A DNA stretch of 64,000 nucleotides from an uncultured Rubripirellula sp. (GTDB taxonomy: Bacteria; Planctomycetota; Planctomycetia; Pirellulales; Pirellulaceae). A model generated the notes under the pieces. It had not been told where the DNA came from. It did no database searches and saw only the letters and a program-made list of their open reading frames with translations. Below, piece after piece: positions 5,595 through 15,472 of the stretch; the stretch's first letter is position 1; every line of letters begins with the position of its first letter. Location: NCBI GenBank assembly GCA_938075415.1, contig CALJHC010000001.1, positions 124,001 through 188,000 on the forward strand, in the 5' to 3' direction. The translations under genes were made by a program, and so were the position numbers.

Positions 5595-7166
5595 ATGAAT
5601 TCACCCGAAGCCATGCTGATCGGAGGATTGATTCGCGTCACACAGGGACTCCTAGCGTGCGCGCCGACGCTGCTAGTTGGCCTATTGATTGCTGCAATTC
5701 TTCGATATTACATCGGTCATGATGGGACACGCCGAGTTTTCGGCGGCCATTCGATGCGGAGTTTGCCGCAGTCGTGGTTGGTTGGCATGCTATTGCCCGT
5801 TTGTTCGATTGGCGTTCTGCCAATCCTTATCCAGATGCGCAAGTCTGGCGTAAGACCCGGTGCAATGTCAGCATTCGCTTTGTCTGCACCGCTGTTCAAT
5901 CCACTCTCGTTACTTTACGGACTGACTTTAAGCCGTCCGTTAGTCATCATTTTTTTCGCATTTGGGTCGCTCCTGATTGTGACGCTCCTTGGTTTGTTAT
6001 GGGATGCATTTGATAAACGTCGGAAAACCAGTCATCAGGCTGGTAATGAAGTGGAGTGTAATCTGATCGGCCTAAGACGCTTGGCGGCTTCGGTGATTTA
6101 CATGTCTCGTGATGCTAGTGGAAAACCACTTGCATTAACCTTATTAGCCCTCTCTGGACTCGCGATTCTCGCGGGTGTCCTACCGTATGGGGCAATGCAG
6201 AATCGTGTCGAGTACGACGACCAGATGGCACCAATCACCATGATGGCCGTGTCGGTTCCGGTCTATGCCACACCGATGCTAGCGATGAGCCAACTGGGCA
6301 TGATGTTTCAGCATGCCAATTCTCCCGGTGCAGCCTTCACACTGCTGATTCTTGGAACAGGGATCAACCTCGCCACCCCATTCTGGTTTGCCAAACATTT
6401 TGGGTCGAAGCCTTCCCTGTTATGGTTCATGACACTTTTGGGGATCGTGTTGGCCATTTCATACGCAATCAACCAACCACTCGTACCGCCAGGTGTCCAA
6501 CCGGCCGGTCACACGCATGCCTTCGATATCTACGCTAATCCGCTTTCGGTTTACCATCAAAACTTGTGGACAACGGCAAAGGACGCGGTCGAGAAGCAGA
6601 TGGATGTCGCGGGTGTTATCGCATTAGGCGTCCTAGCTGTGTTGAGCTTGATCGGCATCGTGGCTCGCACCTTTCGATTCGACGAAAGCAGGCTGGTGAT
6701 CGAAAATCCGTCTCATGTCGGGAAGACTTCACGCGGGAAATTCGACATCATCGTCCCCCGAAGTGTGATTGGAGCAACGATGCTGATTGGTCTAATCGCG
6801 TTGAGCATTGTTGCCTGCTATGCCTACTATCCATCACCAGACGAATGTCTGGAGGAAATTGCGTTGGCTCGTGCAGAGTGTTTATCGGCTGCGAACAGCG
6901 GTGACGCCGAACACGCCTTGTTTTGGCTGCCCGTGTGGGAGGAGTGGAGTCGCCGCTTGGAGGTCGGAACCTTTCTACGCTGCGGTCGATTGAGACGTTA
7001 CCAAAGCATGCAGGGGTTTTTGATTCGCAAGAAACTGGAAATGCTGGAACACGAATTGGAACACGACCCCTATGAGCCTGACGAGGTGAAAGCAGTTGTC
7101 CAAAGTCTTCTATCCACCAACTCCCGCTGGGTAGGTAGCTTTAGGATGCCCTCCAAACCGGATTGA
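5595..7166 (+). CDS. Permease (ArsP/SO_0444-type), probable metal or metalloid efflux
   Basis: A 523-residue multi-pass membrane protein. The N-terminal half resembles the large permease family containing ArsP and SO_0444 transporters (PF03773-like): long hydrophobic helices, the conserved MLLPVCSIGVLPIL segment with a Cys in the membrane, and SAFALSAPLFNPLSL. A second bundle follows from about residue 175 to 295, with further helices near 335-415. The C-terminal ~100 residues are soluble and charged and appear to be an addition to the core family. It is the last gene of the operon with two His-rich proteins, so export of a metal such as Cu or Zn is a reasonable but unproven guess. Confidence 0.75.
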   Translation: MNSPEAMLIGGLIRVTQGLLACAPTLLVGLLIAAILRYYIGHDGTRRVFGGHSMRSLPQSWLVGMLLPVCSIGVLPILIQMRKSGVRPGAMSAFALSAPLFNPLSLLYGLTLSRPLVIIFFAFGSLLIVTLLGLLWDAFDKRRKTSHQAGNEVECNLIGLRRLAASVIYMSRDASGKPLALTLLALSGLAILAGVLPYGAMQNRVEYDDQMAPITMMAVSVPVYATPMLAMSQLGMMFQHANSPGAAFTLLILGTGINLATPFWFAKHFGSKPSLLWFMTLLGIVLAISYAINQPLVPPGVQPAGHTHAFDIYANPLSVYHQNLWTTAKDAVEKQMDVAGVIALGVLAVLSLIGIVARTFRFDESRLVIENPSHVGKTSRGKFDIIVPRSVIGATMLIGLIALSIVACYAYYPSPDECLEEIALARAECLSAANSGDAEHALFWLPVWEEWSRRLEVGTFLRCGRLRRYQSMQGFLIRKKLEMLEHELEHDPYEPDEVKAVVQSLLSTNSRWVGSFRMPSKPD

Positions 7167-7860
7167 TAAGCTCGCAAACGACCTGTTTCTTCGACCCAGA
7201 TTTGGAGCAAAAAACCCGCTACCACCCAAATCACACTGCATTCTAATGAAAACGCAAGCAAGGTAATCCATCCAATTGTCACGCCTGAAAAACTGATAAG
7301 CATCAGCGACTGGTGTTTTCTGTCTCACACACGTCTTGACCAAGATGCAGGACCATTATTTGGCCCAAGAATTTCCTGCAAATAATGGCGTCCTTCTACA
7401 CGTTGGTAACCACTCAAATTACACCATTGAATGATTGTGCAGTTTGAACCAGAGGATCCCACATGTGGACCATCTTGATAGGGCGTTCCCTGATTTGAGG
7501 CGAACTAAGAGACTCTGTCACTTCTCAAGTTTCGCGTACCCCCATCAGCAGCTAGATGATGCCAAGCACCTTGGTGGCAGCGATCAAGCAGGGAACACCG
7601 GCAACTGGTCGGCATTGCAAAAACACGCTACGATTCTGAGGTTCATCTCTGAACGTTCAAAGTCTGATTCGCTTCTCTATCCAGACAGCTAGGACTTTGA
7701 CGAAGCCAGTGGATGCACCGGATGTACAAAACAGTCGTGATACCTGAACCTCAGACCATCACGGACTTGGAGCTACGAGTGAATGAAATTCCTGAGAAGT
7801 CACCGAAGTGATGATTTCGGCGGAGTCTTTAGGAACTAAGGATTCAATATTCGAATTGCC
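7167..7860. other. Intergenic region, no convincing gene
   Basis: A 694-bp gap between the permease and the TusA-like gene. Open frames here (for example 7435-7692 +) start with TTG and show no family resemblance. The only structure I can point to is the overlapping pair of inverted repeats at 7347-7388. The promoter of the sulfur-transfer operon should lie near its right end, but I see no clear -35/-10 pair. Confidence 0.5.
7347..7388. repeat. Overlapping inverted repeats
   Basis: CCATTATTTG (7353-7362) is the exact reverse complement of CAAATAATGG (7379-7388), with a 16-nt loop. GCAGGA (7347-7352) also pairs with TCCTGC (7374-7379). The two pairings share base 7379 and cross each other, so they compete or form a pseudoknot-like fold. 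It could be a terminator remnant or a protein-binding site. Confidence 0.5.
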
Positions 7861-8124
7861 TTGAATAACCGCACCAATAAAACGAACGATGCAATCCTGT
7901 TTTTTGACGGTGGTGAGACCGGATGCGGGGAACTCTTGCTGGATTTGTTCCTTTTCATGCAACAACATCCCGCCGAATCCATGGTGAAAGTTCGTGCCGT
8001 TGATTCCGGGGCACCACTGGAGATCCCGGCTTGGTGCCGGCTAACAAAGCATGAGCTAGTCAAAAGCGACCATCCCTTCTACCTAATCAAAAAAATAAAT
8101 TCAAAAAGAAACGGACATGAGTGA
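7861..8124 (+). CDS. TusA/SirA-like sulfur-carrier protein
   Basis: An 87-residue protein from a TTG start; an in-frame stop at 7837-7839 limits alternatives. It has the TusA-like pattern of a beta strand, DGGETGCG with Cys22, a helix, and the second half V.VR.VDSGAPLEIPAWCRLTKHEL. Classical TusA has C-P-x-P; here it is C-G-E-L, as in the N-terminal part of the fusion at 8497. TusA proteins carry sulfur as a persulfide on that Cys. It overlaps the DsrE-like gene by 8 bp and heads a four-gene operon ending with the MetE-like gene. TusA and DsrE domains occur fused in YedF, which is linked to selenium metabolism, so selenium as well as sulfur is possible. Confidence 0.75.
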   Translation: MNNRTNKTNDAILFFDGGETGCGELLLDLFLFMQQHPAESMVKVRAVDSGAPLEIPAWCRLTKHELVKSDHPFYLIKKINSKRNGHE

Positions 8125-8482
8125 TACCTTTTGCGTCACGATTAACTCGTGCAGAGAAAACGGCGATAAAGCGACTGTTGGTTTCGTCGTGGCGACTGCT
8201 GCCTTGGGATCAGGTAAAGACACAATGGTATTTCTTAGCACCGATGGCGTCTGGGCTGCGGTCAAAGACGAGGCGGCAAAGGTGGTGGAGGGCGGACCGT
8301 TCAAACCGCTTACTGAATTAATTGAAAACTTTATCAACGCGGGCGGGAGAATAATCGCTTGCGCGCCGTGCTGCAAGAAACGCGCCATTGAACAGGATCA
8401 ATTGTTCGAAAACGTTGAAATTGCCGGGGGTGCGGTATTGGTGGAATGGCTCAGTAACGGTTCGCCAAACGTCAGCTACTAA
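8117..8482 (+). CDS. DsrE-like sulfur-transfer protein
   Basis: A 121-residue protein with a DsrE/DsrF-type fold: TVGFVVATAAL, then DTMVFLSTDGV, then a C-terminal strand VLVEWLS. The conserved Cys loop is ACAPCCKKR, with Cys82, Cys85 and Cys86. Members of this family pass persulfide sulfur between carriers such as TusA. The gene starts inside the TusA-like gene (8-bp overlap) and is followed after 14 bp by the TusA-OsmC fusion, so all should be made together. The double Cys is compatible with persulfide or perselenide relay; that role is inferred from family and context. Confidence 0.8.
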   Translation: MSDTFCVTINSCRENGDKATVGFVVATAALGSGKDTMVFLSTDGVWAAVKDEAAKVVEGGPFKPLTELIENFINAGGRIIACAPCCKKRAIEQDQLFENVEIAGGAVLVEWLSNGSPNVSY

Positions 8483-8496
8483 ATCGAATCTGTCTC

Positions 8497-9234
8497 ATGG
8501 CAACCAGCAAAGAGATTCCGAGTGCCGACCACGTTTTTGATGGCGGTTCGTTAGACTGCGGATCTGGCTTGATTCTTTTGATTCGCCAGAACATGCTGCA
8601 GGTTCCCGACGGTGGAATACTCGAGATTCGCAGCAGCGAGCCAACCGTTAAGTCAGAACTGCCACCTTGGTGCCGAATGGTTGGGCACATTCACCTGCAA
8701 AGCATCCAAAGCGGCGAAGGAACGTGGAGGCACTGGGTTCAACGTCGAACCGATGATCGAAAAGAACAGGCTGAACTTGAAGCTGACAAGACGAAAGCAA
8801 AAAATTTTCATTGGAATCTGCGGGCGAGGAAACACGACCATCAAACGACCGTCTACTCGCGAAACTTTTCTTGGAAAAGTGGCAACACAATTGACTTTGA
8901 TCGCTCAGGTAAAACAATCAGCACTCTGGAACAGTTCTTTGGCGCATTGCTCGCAGACGTCATCCACTGTTTTTCAGCCGGTTGTAGTCGAAATCAGATA
9001 TTACTCGATGAACTCGAAGGCACTTTGATTGGCACTCTCAATAGCTCGTTGGCCGCCGCGGGTGTTGAAGAGGGAGATTCATCAGTCAAAACAATCAAAC
9101 TCGTCGTCTACGTAACATCTCCAGCTTCTTCGGCTGATGTACAACGAGAGTGGGCACAAGCGTTGACGAATTCTCCCGTGTTTCAAACTTTATTGAAGTC
9201 TTGTGAAATTGATTCCAGAATTGTTCTTCTATAA
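8497..9234 (+). CDS. TusA-OsmC fusion protein
   Basis: A 245-residue two-domain protein. Residues 10-80 are TusA-like, with DGGSLDCG (Cys21-Gly22 instead of the usual Cys-Pro) and ELPPWCRMVGH. A charged linker near 85-110 leads to an OsmC-like domain (about 115-245) containing TLEQFFGALLADVIHCF with Cys158 at the first redox position. The second OsmC cysteine, usually in a C-P-V motif, appears as NSPVFQTL with Ser226, so classical peroxidase chemistry with two cysteines is doubtful. Such fusions are known, but the reaction is not well defined. The stop lies 11 bp before the MetE-like gene. Confidence 0.78.
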   Translation: MATSKEIPSADHVFDGGSLDCGSGLILLIRQNMLQVPDGGILEIRSSEPTVKSELPPWCRMVGHIHLQSIQSGEGTWRHWVQRRTDDRKEQAELEADKTKAKNFHWNLRARKHDHQTTVYSRNFSWKSGNTIDFDRSGKTISTLEQFFGALLADVIHCFSAGCSRNQILLDELEGTLIGTLNSSLAAAGVEEGDSSVKTIKLVVYVTSPASSADVQREWAQALTNSPVFQTLLKSCEIDSRIVLL

Positions 9235-9245
9235 GTGAGTTTCTG

Positions 9246-10406
9246 ATGCAATTTCCCGTGACACAAGTTGGCTCATGGCCTCGATCACCGAAACTACTTG
9301 CAGCGCTGCGGGAAAGACGCAGCGGGCGAATGCCGGCCAATCAATTCAAAACGGTAGCCGATCAGGCGATACAACATTGTGTCGATTTGCAGCACCAGGC
9401 TGGTGTTGACTATGTGGTGGACGGCGAACTTCGGAGGGATAGTTTTTATTCATTCCTCACCGAAAAAGTTGAAGGCACACAGTTAATGTCATTAGCCGAA
9501 ATGCTTGATACCGTGGAGGACAAGGCAGCATTTGAAGAAATGCTGCAAACACTTGACGCACCGGCTTTCGCCATCCGAAATCCCACCTGTGTTGGCAAAC
9601 TGAGGAGACGGGAATCACTGGCTGTCGATGAACTGAAATTTCTTCGCTCTCTGACAGATCGACCCGTGAAAGTCACTTTGCCAGGTCCCTACCTGTTGAC
9701 CCGCGCGATGTGGGTAACCGCCTATTCAGTCGATGCCTATGGTGACAAACCAGCGATGGCCGATGACATCGTCGCAATTTTGAGAGCAGAACTCGCAGAA
9801 TTAGTTGCCCACCACGTAGAGTTCGTGCAATTTGATGAACCCGTTTTGACCGAAATTGTTCACAGCAGCGATGACAAACGCCGCACCTTCATGTGAGCAA
9901 CCTTGGCGACCCGCCGTGATGCGGGTGATGAATTGGCTTATGCGGCCGAACTAATGAACCAGGTGGTGAAAGGATTCGAAGATCAGGTACGAATTGGTCT
10001 CCATGTATGCCGTGGCAATTGGTCCAAACGCGAAGACGTGCTCATTTCCGGGGACTATCAACCTTTAGTGAGCTGTTTTTCACAAATGAACGTTAAGCAA
10101 CTGGTTCTAGAATATGCGACCCCGCGTGCGGGTGATCTTGCCATCATTGGCAAGGAATTCCACGAACGCGAAATTGGGTTGGGTGTTTGTAATCCACGAA
10201 CTGATCAAGCTGAGTCAGTGAAAGAGATTGCTGAGAGGGTTCGCGATGCATTGATGTTTTGGTCGCCTGAAAAGATTTTTCTTAATCCCGATTGTGGATT
10301 TGGTTGTTTCGCTAATCGGTGTGTCAACGAAGAGCAGGTTGCTTTTGAAAAATTAAAAGCAATGGTTGGTGCTGCAAAGTTAGCTCGTGCCGAATTACGT
10401 GGTTAG
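9246..10406 (+). CDS. MetE-like methyltransferase with in-frame UGA at codon 217 (selenoprotein candidate or nonsense-mutated gene)
   Basis: One reading frame runs from ATG 9246 to 10406, broken only by TGA at 9894-9896. Read through, it gives 386 residues, about the usual size of the short cobalamin-independent methionine synthase (MetE C-terminal) family. Before the stop are the family N-terminus VGSWPR and DEP at 197-199. After it are HVCRGNW with zinc ligands His253 and Cys255, and NPDCGF with Cys350. The stop falls in RRTFM-[UGA]-ATLATRRD. A perfect 6-bp hairpin with a 6-nt loop starts 12 nt after the UGA and resembles a bacterial SECIS, so selenocysteine is possible. The alternatives are a nonsense mutation, or a restart at TTG 9903. 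A homocysteine or thiol methyl transfer role is inferred from the family. Confidence 0.72.
9909..9926 (+). promoter_or_regulatory. SECIS-like hairpin downstream of UGA
   Basis: ACCCGC (9909-9914) pairs perfectly with GCGGGT (9921-9926) around the loop CGTGAT. Eighteen nucleotides separate the UGA from the loop, and the second loop base is G followed by U. These values fit the known bacterial SECIS rules (stem of at least 4 bp, loop 16-37 nt away, G in the first two loop bases). Chance occurrence cannot be excluded. Confidence 0.5.
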
Positions 10407-11884: not shown

Positions 11885-12454
11885 TTACAACCGATGATCA
11901 AGTTGATCAGTGAGGTCGATCATGGAAATGTTCAAAAAGGTCGACCAACGCAATCCCTCCCAGAGAACTGGATCAACCTCAGGAAAAGAGACAACGCGCT
12001 TCGAAAGTTTGATCCCCTCGAGCACCATGATGTAACTGGTTGATGACCCCGTCTCGTGGGCTTGCCGACAAATCACACGCTCAATGTTTGTGATCGGATA
12101 GGAACGTCTTCGCGTAAAAGGTCCAAATCCGCTCAGGTGTGTCAATTTTCCACCCACCTGATCAAGCGAAAAAACTTCCCGGTTAAATGTCAGGTGTAAA
12201 CCCATAACGGTAAACCCGAAACCAATCACCGAACCCCCACTAAGAATTGGCCATGCCTCTGAAATTAGAATCCCCGGAATATTCCATATCCCCACCGAAA
12301 TCACCAAACCTATCAGGGAAAGAGGAATACCGATAATTCCCAGCCAAAGATGCTCATGGGTTAACTCCAAACGCTGCGTGGTTGCGGTCACTTTCCAGGG
12401 ATGCGTGTCATCAGTGACGACTTGAAGATTATCTTCCTGCACGGTCTTTTTCAC
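11885..12454 (-). CDS. Small membrane protein, unknown
   Basis: A 189-residue protein with a polar N-terminus, two strongly hydrophobic segments (about 34-55 and 65-88), and a C-terminal soluble part with HLSGFGPFTRRRSYP and VICRQ. The layout resembles the many small bacterial proteins with two helices followed by a PH-like beta domain, but no family was recognised. It is transcribed away from the D-aminoacylase fusion gene, whose start lies about 200 bp to the right, and converges with the GDPD-like gene to its left. Confidence 0.6.
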   Translation of the reverse strand: MKKTVQEDNLQVVTDDTHPWKVTATTQRLELTHEHLWLGIIGIPLSLIGLVISVGIWNIPGILISEAWPILSGGSVIGFGFTVMGLHLTFNREVFSLDQVGGKLTHLSGFGPFTRRRSYPITNIERVICRQAHETGSSTSYIMVLEGIKLSKRVVSFPEVDPVLWEGLRWSTFLNISMIDLTDQLDHRL

Positions 12455-12652
12455 TTTAAGAAAGGGAACGGGACTTATTCACTGCACCACAACCAACTGA
12501 GCAAGATAAACCCGAGTATTTCCCAGATCTCAGCCACTGATTACTTGCTAACATGGATTGATCCGTTCGAGTTAATTGAATGCTTCAGTGCCATTGCACT
12601 AAGAATGTACCTTTACCGGTCAATGATATCTTTCCACAGAAAGCCCGTTTCC

Positions 12653-15472
12653 ATGCAAGAACAATTTGGACGATGGAACCCTTTGATTCTGGCTGCAACG
12701 CTGATTGTCGCACTTCAACCCAACGCTTTTGCTGTTGAAATCTTTGATTTGATTATTACTGATGGAATGATTATCGATGGATCTGGCAGGCCTCGGTTTC
12801 AGGCGGACGTAGGAATCAAAGACGGAAAAATTTCGTCAATTGGGGATCTGGATAAATCCGCCGCCAAACAGACGATCAACGCATCGGGCAAGATCGTGTC
12901 CCCGGGTCTCATCGACATGATGGGACAGACTGCGACACCGATGATTGTCAATCCTCGGTCGGCGATAAATCTCCTCAGTCAGGGTATCACCACGATCAAT
13001 GCGGGAGAAGGCGTTTCGGCTGCACCATTAGGGAGCAACCAAGAACGAGAAACTGGCTACACCTCCATGGCTGAATATTTTCACCGCCTCGATTCAATTG
13101 GTCTTCCCGTCAACGTTGTCCAAAGTGTTGGACATACGCAAGTAAGGCGTCTGGTATTGGGCGACCTAGATCGCCGTCCCAGTCAGGACGAATTACAACA
13201 AATGCAGCAATATGTTCATGAAGCGATGGAGGCTGGAGCAATTGGAGTTTCCACCGCTTTGATCTATCCCCCCGCAATCTATGCCCAAACACAGGAAATT
13301 GTTGCCTTGGCAAAAGTTGCCGGGCAATTCGGCGGACGTTACTTCACTCACATGCGAAATGAAGGTGACCAATTGCTTGAGGCAATCGACGAGGCGCTGA
13401 CGGTTGGTCAACAAGCAAATACTTCTGTGCACATCTTCCATCTCAAGGCAGCGGGTGAACAGAACTGGCACAAAATACCGTTGGCAATTGAAAAGATACG
13501 ACGATCAAATGAACTTGGGGACCAAGTCACCGCTGATATCTATCCCTACCTTCACAACGGACTGGGCATCCTTGCTTTCATCCACCCCAGACATTTTACG
13601 GAGGGACGAGAAAAGCTTGTTGCAAAATTAAAGGATCCTGAACTTCGACGAGTCATTCGAGCTGAAATGGAATCCAGTATTGGCTGGGAAAATTGGTTCA
13701 ACCACGTTTCAAAAGATTGGAATCGCATCATTGTTGGAAGTAGTAATCATCCTCGATATCAGGAGATGGATGGACTAAGCCTTGCGGACATGGCGGCCGA
13801 TCATGATGAAGACGAGTGGAGCACCTTCTTCGAACTGGCGATGACCAATGCCTTTGTGTTACCGGAGACCATGTCCAGTAAGAACAAGAAGCTGTTGATG
13901 CAGCAGCCATTCATCTCCTTCTGCACCGATGCGGGACCTGCAGCAAAAAACCGTTCCGCCTCACACCCTCGCGCGTTTGGCTCTTTTTCGAGACTCCTGG
14001 GAAAATACGTTCGGGAGCAAAAAGTGATTTCACTTGAGCGGGCCATTTCACAAGCCACTCATCACGCTGCCCAAGCTGTATTTGCTGTGGATCGGGGACA
14101 AATAAAGCAAGGTTTCGCGGCCGATATCATCGTTTTTGATGAAACCAAAATTATCGATCGAGCCGACTTTAGAAACAGCGATGAAGTTTCAGCCGGGATT
14201 GAACAAGTTTTAGTTAACGGAGAACTGGTCTATGTGAACGGTGAGTACACCGGTGAGCGTCCAGGTCGCGTGCTGCGAGGTCCCGCATATCGGGAAGAAG
14301 TGAAACCACAAAACATCCATTCTGGGGAAAACATCGAAGAGTACTCGAACAATGATGCTGAGATGCAAAATTTTCTTAAGCAGCACCGAGTCCCGGGCGC
14401 TGCTGTTGCGGTCACACATAACGGCAAAATGATCTACGCTAAAGGATTTGGAAATGCAAACATTGCGGACCGTGAAAAGGTGACCTCCAAAAGCCTATTT
14501 CGTATTGCGAGTCTCTCCAAACCCATCACCGCCGTCGCAGTCCTGAAATTGGCCGAAGAGGGAAAGTTGACACTCAACGATCGAGTCTACCAACGACTCG
14601 GGATGGAAGATGAATTTGAGGACAGCGCCGTTGAATCGCGGCTGGCCTCAATCACGATACGGCAGCTTTTGCAGCATCGCGGTGGCTGGGACCGAAATCA
14701 ATCGTTTGACCCCATGTTTCGGTCAACCCGCTTTGCGGCTGATTTGGGTGTTTCACCACCCGCCGACGCGCATGCGGTCATCAAGGCAATGCTGAACCAA
14801 CCACTCGATTTCAATCCGGGCGACCGATACGCCTATTCCAACTTTGGTTACTGTTTATTAGGTCGAGTGATTGAAAAAGTCTCTGGGCAAACCTACGAAG
14901 ATTATGTAAAGCAAAGTGTGTTGGAACCTCTCGGAATCAGGACGATGCGCCTCGGTAGAACGCGTCTCGACAAACGTGTGGAAAACGAAGTTCGTTACTA
15001 CCACCCTTTTTCATCCCCGTCTGTATTCGCCGAAGATCTCAACGATCCTGTGCCTTCGCATTACGGCGGTTGGCATCTCGAAGCGATGGACTCACACGGA
15101 GGTTGGCTTGCCTCTGCTGAGGACCTTGCCAAGTTTGCAATGGCGTTTGATTTTCCCGATAGTTCCCCAATATTGAGCAAGCAAAGCATCACGGAAATGC
15201 ACATGAGACCACCGGGCTTGGCAGGGCATGACAAGACAGGAAACCCCAAGACCGTCTACTATTCACTGGGTTGGAGCAATCGAGTCCTTGCCGAAAACAA
15301 GATGAACCATTGGCATACCGGATCATTGCCGGGAACGACAACTATTTTAATCCGACGTCACGATGGGAAAAATATTGTCGGGCTTCTAAACACCAGAACC
15401 AGCGCGGCGAAGGAATCTCTCAGCCGTGCATTGGATCAACTGATGCATCGATTAGCCAATAATGCAGATTGA
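12653..15472 (+). CDS. N-acyl-D-amino-acid deacylase-like / beta-lactamase-fold fusion, secreted
   Basis: I choose ATG 12653 because it begins a clear signal peptide (LILAATLIVALQ, cleavage after NAFA); the frame is open upstream to 12401 without such features. The product is 939 residues. The first ~530 residues form an amidohydrolase of the D-aminoacylase type (IITDGMIIDGSGRP, YFTHMRNEGD, IFHLKAAGE, FCTDAG). The usual HxH metal motif is replaced by IDMMGQ. The rest is a class C beta-lactamase/serine hydrolase domain with S620-L-S-K623, Y728-S-N and H888-T-G. Both halves act on amide or ester bonds of D-amino-acid compounds in related proteins, so a role in turnover of peptidoglycan fragments is plausible. 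The domain pairing is worth noting. Confidence 0.85.
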   Translation: MQEQFGRWNPLILAATLIVALQPNAFAVEIFDLIITDGMIIDGSGRPRFQADVGIKDGKISSIGDLDKSAAKQTINASGKIVSPGLIDMMGQTATPMIVNPRSAINLLSQGITTINAGEGVSAAPLGSNQERETGYTSMAEYFHRLDSIGLPVNVVQSVGHTQVRRLVLGDLDRRPSQDELQQMQQYVHEAMEAGAIGVSTALIYPPAIYAQTQEIVALAKVAGQFGGRYFTHMRNEGDQLLEAIDEALTVGQQANTSVHIFHLKAAGEQNWHKIPLAIEKIRRSNELGDQVTADIYPYLHNGLGILAFIHPRHFTEGREKLVAKLKDPELRRVIRAEMESSIGWENWFNHVSKDWNRIIVGSSNHPRYQEMDGLSLADMAADHDEDEWSTFFELAMTNAFVLPETMSSKNKKLLMQQPFISFCTDAGPAAKNRSASHPRAFGSFSRLLGKYVREQKVISLERAISQATHHAAQAVFAVDRGQIKQGFAADIIVFDETKIIDRADFRNSDEVSAGIEQVLVNGELVYVNGEYTGERPGRVLRGPAYREEVKPQNIHSGENIEEYSNNDAEMQNFLKQHRVPGAAVAVTHNGKMIYAKGFGNANIADREKVTSKSLFRIASLSKPITAVAVLKLAEEGKLTLNDRVYQRLGMEDEFEDSAVESRLASITIRQLLQHRGGWDRNQSFDPMFRSTRFAADLGVSPPADAHAVIKAMLNQPLDFNPGDRYAYSNFGYCLLGRVIEKVSGQTYEDYVKQSVLEPLGIRTMRLGRTRLDKRVENEVRYYHPFSSPSVFAEDLNDPVPSHYGGWHLEAMDSHGGWLASAEDLAKFAMAFDFPDSSPILSKQSITEMHMRPPGLAGHDKTGNPKTVYYSLGWSNRVLAENKMNHWHTGSLPGTTTILIRRHDGKNIVGLLNTRTSAAKESLSRALDQLMHRLANNAD

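Follow-up and report, generated by a model that had tools for sequence, protein, structure and literature searches.

A candidate selenocysteine codon in a MetE-like methyltransferase gene of an uncultured Rubripirellula

A MetE-like gene of an uncultured Rubripirellula sp. is interrupted by a single in-frame UGA. Does this codon end a protein, or does it specify selenocysteine (Sec)? The gene lies at 9246-10406 on the forward strand of the window, that is, the whole 64,000-nucleotide stretch that was analyzed (GenBank assembly GCA_938075415.1, contig CALJHC010000001.1, positions 124,001 to 188,000). An initial annotation, made from the letters alone, put the gene forward as a candidate new selenoprotein. 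We report here that the UGA occupies a position at which relatives carry cysteine (Cys) or UGA, that it is followed by a conserved hairpin, and that the genome carries selB, selA and selD; at the level of sequence, these three observations support the candidate. It is highly probable that UGA codon 217 is decoded as Sec by way of SelB and the hairpin, and that the product is a zinc-site methyltransferase of 386 residues, which would act together with TusA, DsrE and TusA-OsmC proteins. Since gene calling normally cuts a protein at UGA, a gene of this kind is easily overlooked.

The in-frame UGA and residue 217 in homologues

The sole in-frame TGA of the frame lies at 9894-9896 and corresponds to residue 217; read-through yields 386 residues. 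The frame had been described as intact on both sides of this codon, and the two halves bear this out, as each separately matches PF01717 (76 bits for the part 5' of the UGA and 46.5 bits for the part 3' of it). The read-through protein gives a single PF01717 domain match of 120 bits (curated cut-off, 21). From its reading frame, domain match and fold comparison, the gene is therefore described as MetE-like and predicted to encode a selenoprotein. The database entry for the window's own gene (P0082) has 216 residues, i.e. it ends at the UGA.

The initial annotation suggested that relatives may have Cys at residue 217. This proved to be so, in that close homologues have either Cys or UGA. Of 8000 candidates scored in a protein search, 7923 matched at E <= 0.001 and 120 were listed; with P0082 left out, 119 listed homologues were compared at column 217. 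Among these listed matches, 118 carry Cys and one (P0039) has a gap. P0039, which lacks six residues around position 217 and retains the TLATRRDAG peptide, may stem from a UGA gene that was wrongly assembled or annotated. Because annotated databases truncate Sec forms at the UGA, the protein count is one-sided, and DNA was therefore searched. Codon 217 is TGA in 31 and Cys in 37 of 68 DNA loci (a 67-locus comparison comprises 30 TGA and 37 Cys loci, to which L135 was added), and none of 18 translated TGA frames contains another in-frame stop. As the same codon is TGA in 31 loci, the TGA at 9894-9896 is not a read error, an outcome that the initial annotation had named as fatal to its proposal. 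The alignments of homologues and of DNA loci thus make codon 217 a predicted Sec codon whose non-UGA counterparts are Cys.

Planctomycetota, Verrucomicrobiota, Krumholzibacteriota and Desulfobulbia all contribute TGA loci, one of the sources being Desulfopila aestuarii DSM 18488. Twenty loci belong to named genomes, 17 with TGA at codon 217 and three, all of Verrucomicrobiales, with Cys. A sample of the phylum yielded matches in 50 of 392 genomes (51 matches), five of them flagged with one TGA; among these five, codon 217 is TGA in the window, L047 and L135 (= G047). L036 and L038 were rejected as UGA forms, as the flagged TGA is the normal end of the gene and codon 217 is Cys. When the order was sampled, 10 of 396 genomes matched: the window and three genus-mates have TGA, and the six others have Cys. 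Five more genomes listed for the window's genus gave no match, so the gene is patchy within the genus. Desulfobulbia, the class to which Desulfopila aestuarii belongs, has matches in 22 of 257 genomes. Twenty of these matches are full-length with exactly one stop, a TGA; of the remaining two, one is a gene split over two contigs with one TGA and the other is in pieces with several stops. All 12 Desulfobulbia loci that were fetched are full-length and have TGA at codon 217. The Sec label needs six changes, at least five of which are forced by starred branches, on a 114-row tree (quick method with SH-aLRT) in which L047 was scored as Sec and from which L135 was left out. No direction of change is claimed, because some Cys rows come from databases in which Sec forms cannot appear.

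The hairpin after the UGA and the selenocysteine machinery

Twelve nucleotides after the UGA, at 9909-9926 on the forward strand, lies a predicted bacterial selenocysteine insertion sequence (SECIS) hairpin, recognized by its fold and by the conservation of its pairs and synonymous codons. The arms ACCCGC (9909-9914) and GCGGGU (9921-9926) form a 6-bp stem that closes a 6-nt loop, CGUGAU, 18 nt after the UGA, with G as its second base; the letters agree with the initial description on each of these points. The hairpin is retained in 29 of the 31 TGA loci, the exceptions being L047 and L135. In the window and 17 named loci, all six stem pairs are intact (18/18). When 11 more Desulfobulbia loci are included (n = 29), the only mispair is one A-A at the outermost pair of one locus; pairs 3 and 5 vary in four loci, always as G-U wobbles, and no locus differs at loop base 1, 2, 4 or 5. 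In the 18 TGA loci, codons 222-227 are nearly frozen and codons 219-221 and 228 are variable. The seven-codon segment that starts at codon 222 is the highest of 277 such segments in synonymous identity (0.871; mean, 0.418). None of 31 Cys loci comes within three mismatches of the hairpin, the closest having four. A stem per se proves nothing, since stems of at least six pairs of any kind are present in 12 of the 31 Cys loci; it is the conserved sequence and place that are informative. Thus, the conservation of the pairs, together with synonymous codons that are more frozen here than anywhere else in the gene, indicates that the hairpin is more than chance.

On a single contig of the window's genome, genes for SelB (305.4 bits), SelA (494.5 bits) and SelD (228.4 bits) follow one another in this order. 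By eye, this SelD carries a fused N-terminal half that resembles an oxidoreductase. ARAGORN calls a tRNA-SeC with anticodon UCA in 15 of the 17 named TGA genomes (all except L052 and L063); by their match coordinates, three of these correspond to genus-mates of the window. SelB is above the cut-off in 15 of the 17 (all except L052 and L065). Two of the three Cys genomes of Verrucomicrobiales have a tRNA-SeC, and one of them has SelB above the cut-off. In the Desulfopila genome (G409), a second match resembling the Sec tRNA (tRNA-Sec) lies at L093 1501-1592; it scores 61 bits, above the Rfam cut-off, and receives no ARAGORN call. A UGA that stands at the Cys position of relatives, just before a conserved hairpin, points to insertion of Sec, and on this pattern we regard its insertion at codon 217 as very likely.

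The predicted active site and the sulfur-carrier neighbours

Ligand and homocysteine-site roles in MetE were taken from PMC7857596, and the numbering of Escherichia coli MetE was transferred by inference via Thermotoga maritima MetE. The predicted zinc ligands are H253 and C255 of an HVC motif (10002-10010), assigned by the motif as well as by these roles, the HVC stretch being outside the aligned pieces of the comparison with T. maritima MetE; E289 (10110-10112; likely E665 of E. coli MetE); and C350 of an NPDC motif (10293-10295; likely C726). The predicted homocysteine-site residues are S10 (9273-9275; likely S433), E61 (9426-9428; likely E484) and D197 of a DEP motif (9834-9836; likely D599). 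All lie on the forward strand, and all seven positions, counting H253 and C255 individually, are invariant in 67 of 67 loci. The DEP motif upstream and the HVC and NPDC motifs downstream of the UGA, noted initially, are therefore borne out, and we infer that the protein binds zinc. None of eight NCBIfam methionine synthase models (PRK04326, PRK09121, PRK00957, TIGR01371 and four others) reaches its cut-off, the best score being 187.8 bits against a cut-off of 406. The nearest solved fold is MesD with selenomethionine (3rpd). MetH is encoded full-length in the window's genome (1596 bits) and is above the cut-off in 15 others of 22 genomes; because the host has this enzyme, a housekeeping role is unlikely, and the gene product is probably not the host's housekeeping methionine synthase.

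Three genes precede the MetE-like gene on the same strand. A TusA-like gene (7861-8124) has a weak Pfam match (19.3 bits; cut-off, 28.6), with C22 conserved in all 28 and C59 in all but one of 29 aligned loci. A DsrE-like gene (8117-8482) scores 50 bits and has C82 and C85 in each of the 33 loci aligned. The third, a TusA-OsmC fusion gene (8497-9234), has C21 and C59 in each of the 34 loci, out of a total of 38, that were aligned at these positions; its scores of 28.2 and 18 bits are both below the Pfam cut-offs (28.6 and 27.5), and its Desulfopila counterpart scores 43.6 bits for OsmC. Of the TusA-, DsrE- and OsmC-type assignments made initially, that of DsrE is clear, that of TusA is weak, and the third gene is better described as the fusion. 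The carrier-type neighbourhood is real, and it also accompanies Cys forms, down to 41% identity. A DsrE-type gene occurs in 34 and a TusA-OsmC type gene (or part of one) in 38 of the 50 loci of a first set; in a second set of 21 loci, the numbers are 20 and 21, respectively. Among the 18 hairpin-bearing TGA loci of the first set, 17 have DsrE, and L058 is without any partner. In some loci, the small TusA gene lies downstream.

TusA-, DsrE- and OsmC-type proteins are, by family, sulfur carriers, and a sulfur relay is therefore the natural partner reaction. In the mechanism that we propose, SelB bound to the hairpin would decode UGA 217 as Sec. A mobile loop between the strand that ends in D197 and the H253 strand would place Sec217 at the mouth of the catalytic site, where it would attack sulfur delivered as a persulfide by TusA-type carriers. 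A zinc-bound thiol and methyl transfer would then finish a reaction that joins the sulfur relay to S-methylation or demethylation. We are much less sure of this scheme of mobile loop, persulfide attack and methyl transfer than of Sec insertion, and it is offered tentatively. A broader version appears more doubtful still: Sec217 may be a nucleophile that takes sulfur or methyl from TusA/OsmC carriers at a zinc-thiolate site, in a relay-coupled methyltransferase pathway of Desulfobulbia and planctomycetes; more distant members would have the Cys form, and L047 and L135 would be a second Sec lineage that uses another SECIS.

Several other features of the flanks were recorded. In two Cys loci of Verrucomicrobiales (L059 5449-9149 and L068 4056-8326), the OsmC gene is kept and is followed by an acyl-CoA dehydrogenase-like gene (the other genes of L068 were read by eye); DsrE was not found in either stretch. 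In L059, a phosphonate-binding-like protein precedes the MetE-like gene. Upstream in the window, an ArsP-type permease gene (5595-7166) shows distant similarity to two efflux families, SO_0444 Cu/Zn and SaoE, and reaches the cut-off of neither. It has no match in the 50 loci of the first set, 30 of which have short flanks only, and was excluded from the cassette on this ground. The ~690 bases between the permease gene and the cassette (7171-7860) hold no convincing gene by eye in the list of open reading frames. A long frame at 12401-15472 resembles, by eye, an amidohydrolase followed by a beta-lactamase-type domain. An attempt to read function from flanks outside the cassette (ten frames in six relatives) was abandoned: three frames have sigma-factor, NifU and VIT/VWA domains, and none is common.

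Alternative readings and significance

Several observations weigh against a Sec-containing methyltransferase decoded through SelB and the hairpin. Folding recovers the hairpin as initially described with an unremarkable energy: relative to shuffles, its z-score is -0.66 to -1.3, which by itself is not significant. Hairpin energy alone was accordingly rejected as evidence, although relative L050 gives -4.05. Rfam has no match for 9800-10050. The initial annotation asked for selA, selB, selD and tRNA-Sec in the genome; the three genes are clustered, and Rfam (RF01852), ARAGORN and DNA queries found no tRNA-Sec in the assembly of the window, which is 87.4% complete. RF01852 gave ten matches, eight of which were called by ARAGORN as Ser, Leu or Gly tRNAs or as nothing, the two weakest (31 bits) being outside this check. 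A scan of the sel region did not find tRNA-Sec either. A genus-mate's tRNA-Sec, used as a DNA query against this assembly, matched over 22 bases at best with no tRNA called, and a 3-kb stretch around the tRNA-Sec of another genus-mate found nothing there. Of the 17 named TGA genomes, one lacks SelB only, one lacks tRNA-Sec only, and L052's genome (4.0 Mb) is the only one without both. Residue 217 falls in the least certain stretch of the predicted structure (block mean predicted local distance difference test score, pLDDT, 53). The cassette is not universal, since 12 of the 50 first-set loci have neither DsrE nor the fusion within the fetched stretch; for nine of these 12, the flank fetched was only ~1.5 kb. 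Finally, L047 and L135 have TGA at codon 217, are closely alike around it, and lack the conserved hairpin; their own sequences fold no better than shuffled ones do, and in L047's genome SelB scores 345 bits and no tRNA-Sec could be found. These two loci (L047 2128-2175 and L135 1048-1095) are distant relatives, at 48-49% identity, and may have another SECIS type or a real stop. By eye, a smaller stem, GCCC-GGA-GGGC, recurs in both, ~25 nt after the UGA; a pair of loci is not enough to judge it by.

A nonsense mutation, a pseudogene or a sequencing error, with the 3' part decaying, could account for a stop codon within the gene and for an assembly without detected tRNA-Sec. This account is hardly credible in view of the 31 loci with TGA at codon 217, the lack of any other stop in the 18 TGA frames, and the catalytic residues, downstream ones too, that are invariant in every locus compared. 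Just as improbable is a split gene in which the UGA is a true stop and translation restarts at TTG 9903 (a 167-codon frame) to give two subunits. An open reading frame at 9903-10406 with a TTG start does exist in the window, and split MetE proteins are known, mainly from archaea, with the break between the two MetE domains (PMC7857596). However, TTG occurs at that codon in just two of the 18 TGA loci, the stop sits precisely on an otherwise conserved Cys codon, and the frozen hairpin and the sel genes would be left unexplained. Read-through of UGA occurs in bacteria, and near-cognate suppression might insert Trp or Cys here with no part for selenium; the undetected tRNA-Sec and the two TGA loci without the hairpin would fit such suppression. 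It remains very improbable, as the non-TGA loci are Cys in 37 of 37 cases, SelA, SelB and SelD are present, and the conserved hairpin fits bacterial SECIS geometry (by the distance and loop rules that the initial annotation states).

More weight is due to a reading that accepts the selenoprotein and makes it an ordinary core methionine synthase with a corrinoid or other donor, in which Sec217 would be a redox switch or metal ligand with no direct sulfur relay. The retention of all four zinc and all three homocysteine-site residues of MetE and the fold nearest to MesD argue for it. On the other hand, MetH is present in the host and most of the other genomes, all eight NCBIfam models are far below their cut-offs, and TusA/DsrE/OsmC-type genes stand beside Cys forms of as little as 41% identity. 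We consider it a real possibility, if not a favored one.

The Sec-containing methyltransferase differs from MesA-D core methionine synthases and the MetE catalytic domain (PF01717) in its conserved Cys/Sec217 between D197 and H253, in scoring below every listed NCBIfam methionine synthase cut-off, in the cassette found in most loci, and in a host that has MetH. It resembles known bacterial selenoproteins, such as formate dehydrogenase FdhA, in having UGA at a Cys site, a hairpin just after it, sel genes, and tRNA-Sec in relatives; unlike them, it has a zinc-site methyltransferase fold. According to PMC13188914, most characterized selenoproteins combine a redox motif with a thioredoxin-like fold, and selenoprotein forms of DsrE-like and OsmC-like proteins are known. 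Here, the same domain types are neighbours of the MetE-like gene; the aligned DsrE and fusion genes have no in-frame stop in the first-set TGA loci, and it is the MetE-like gene that carries the UGA. In its accessible sections, supplementary tables aside, that 2026 inventory of 119 families includes no PF01717, methionine synthase, MetE or homocysteine selenoprotein. Likewise, the corresponding parts of PMC12013277, PMC9312934, PMC2398784, PMC5029168, PMC4807772 and PMC7857596, again supplementary tables aside, hold no MetE-like or methionine-synthase selenoprotein, and no NCBIfam (June 2026) selenoprotein model is among the matches of the window protein. The gene thus likely represents a new selenoprotein family, of an unusual enzyme class and absent from the published lists compared, although papers outside these may hold it. 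A family in which a zinc methyltransferase fold comes in Sec and Cys forms, exchanged several times on the tree and accompanied by a cassette of sulfur carriers, would offer a natural way to test what selenium contributes to sulfur chemistry.
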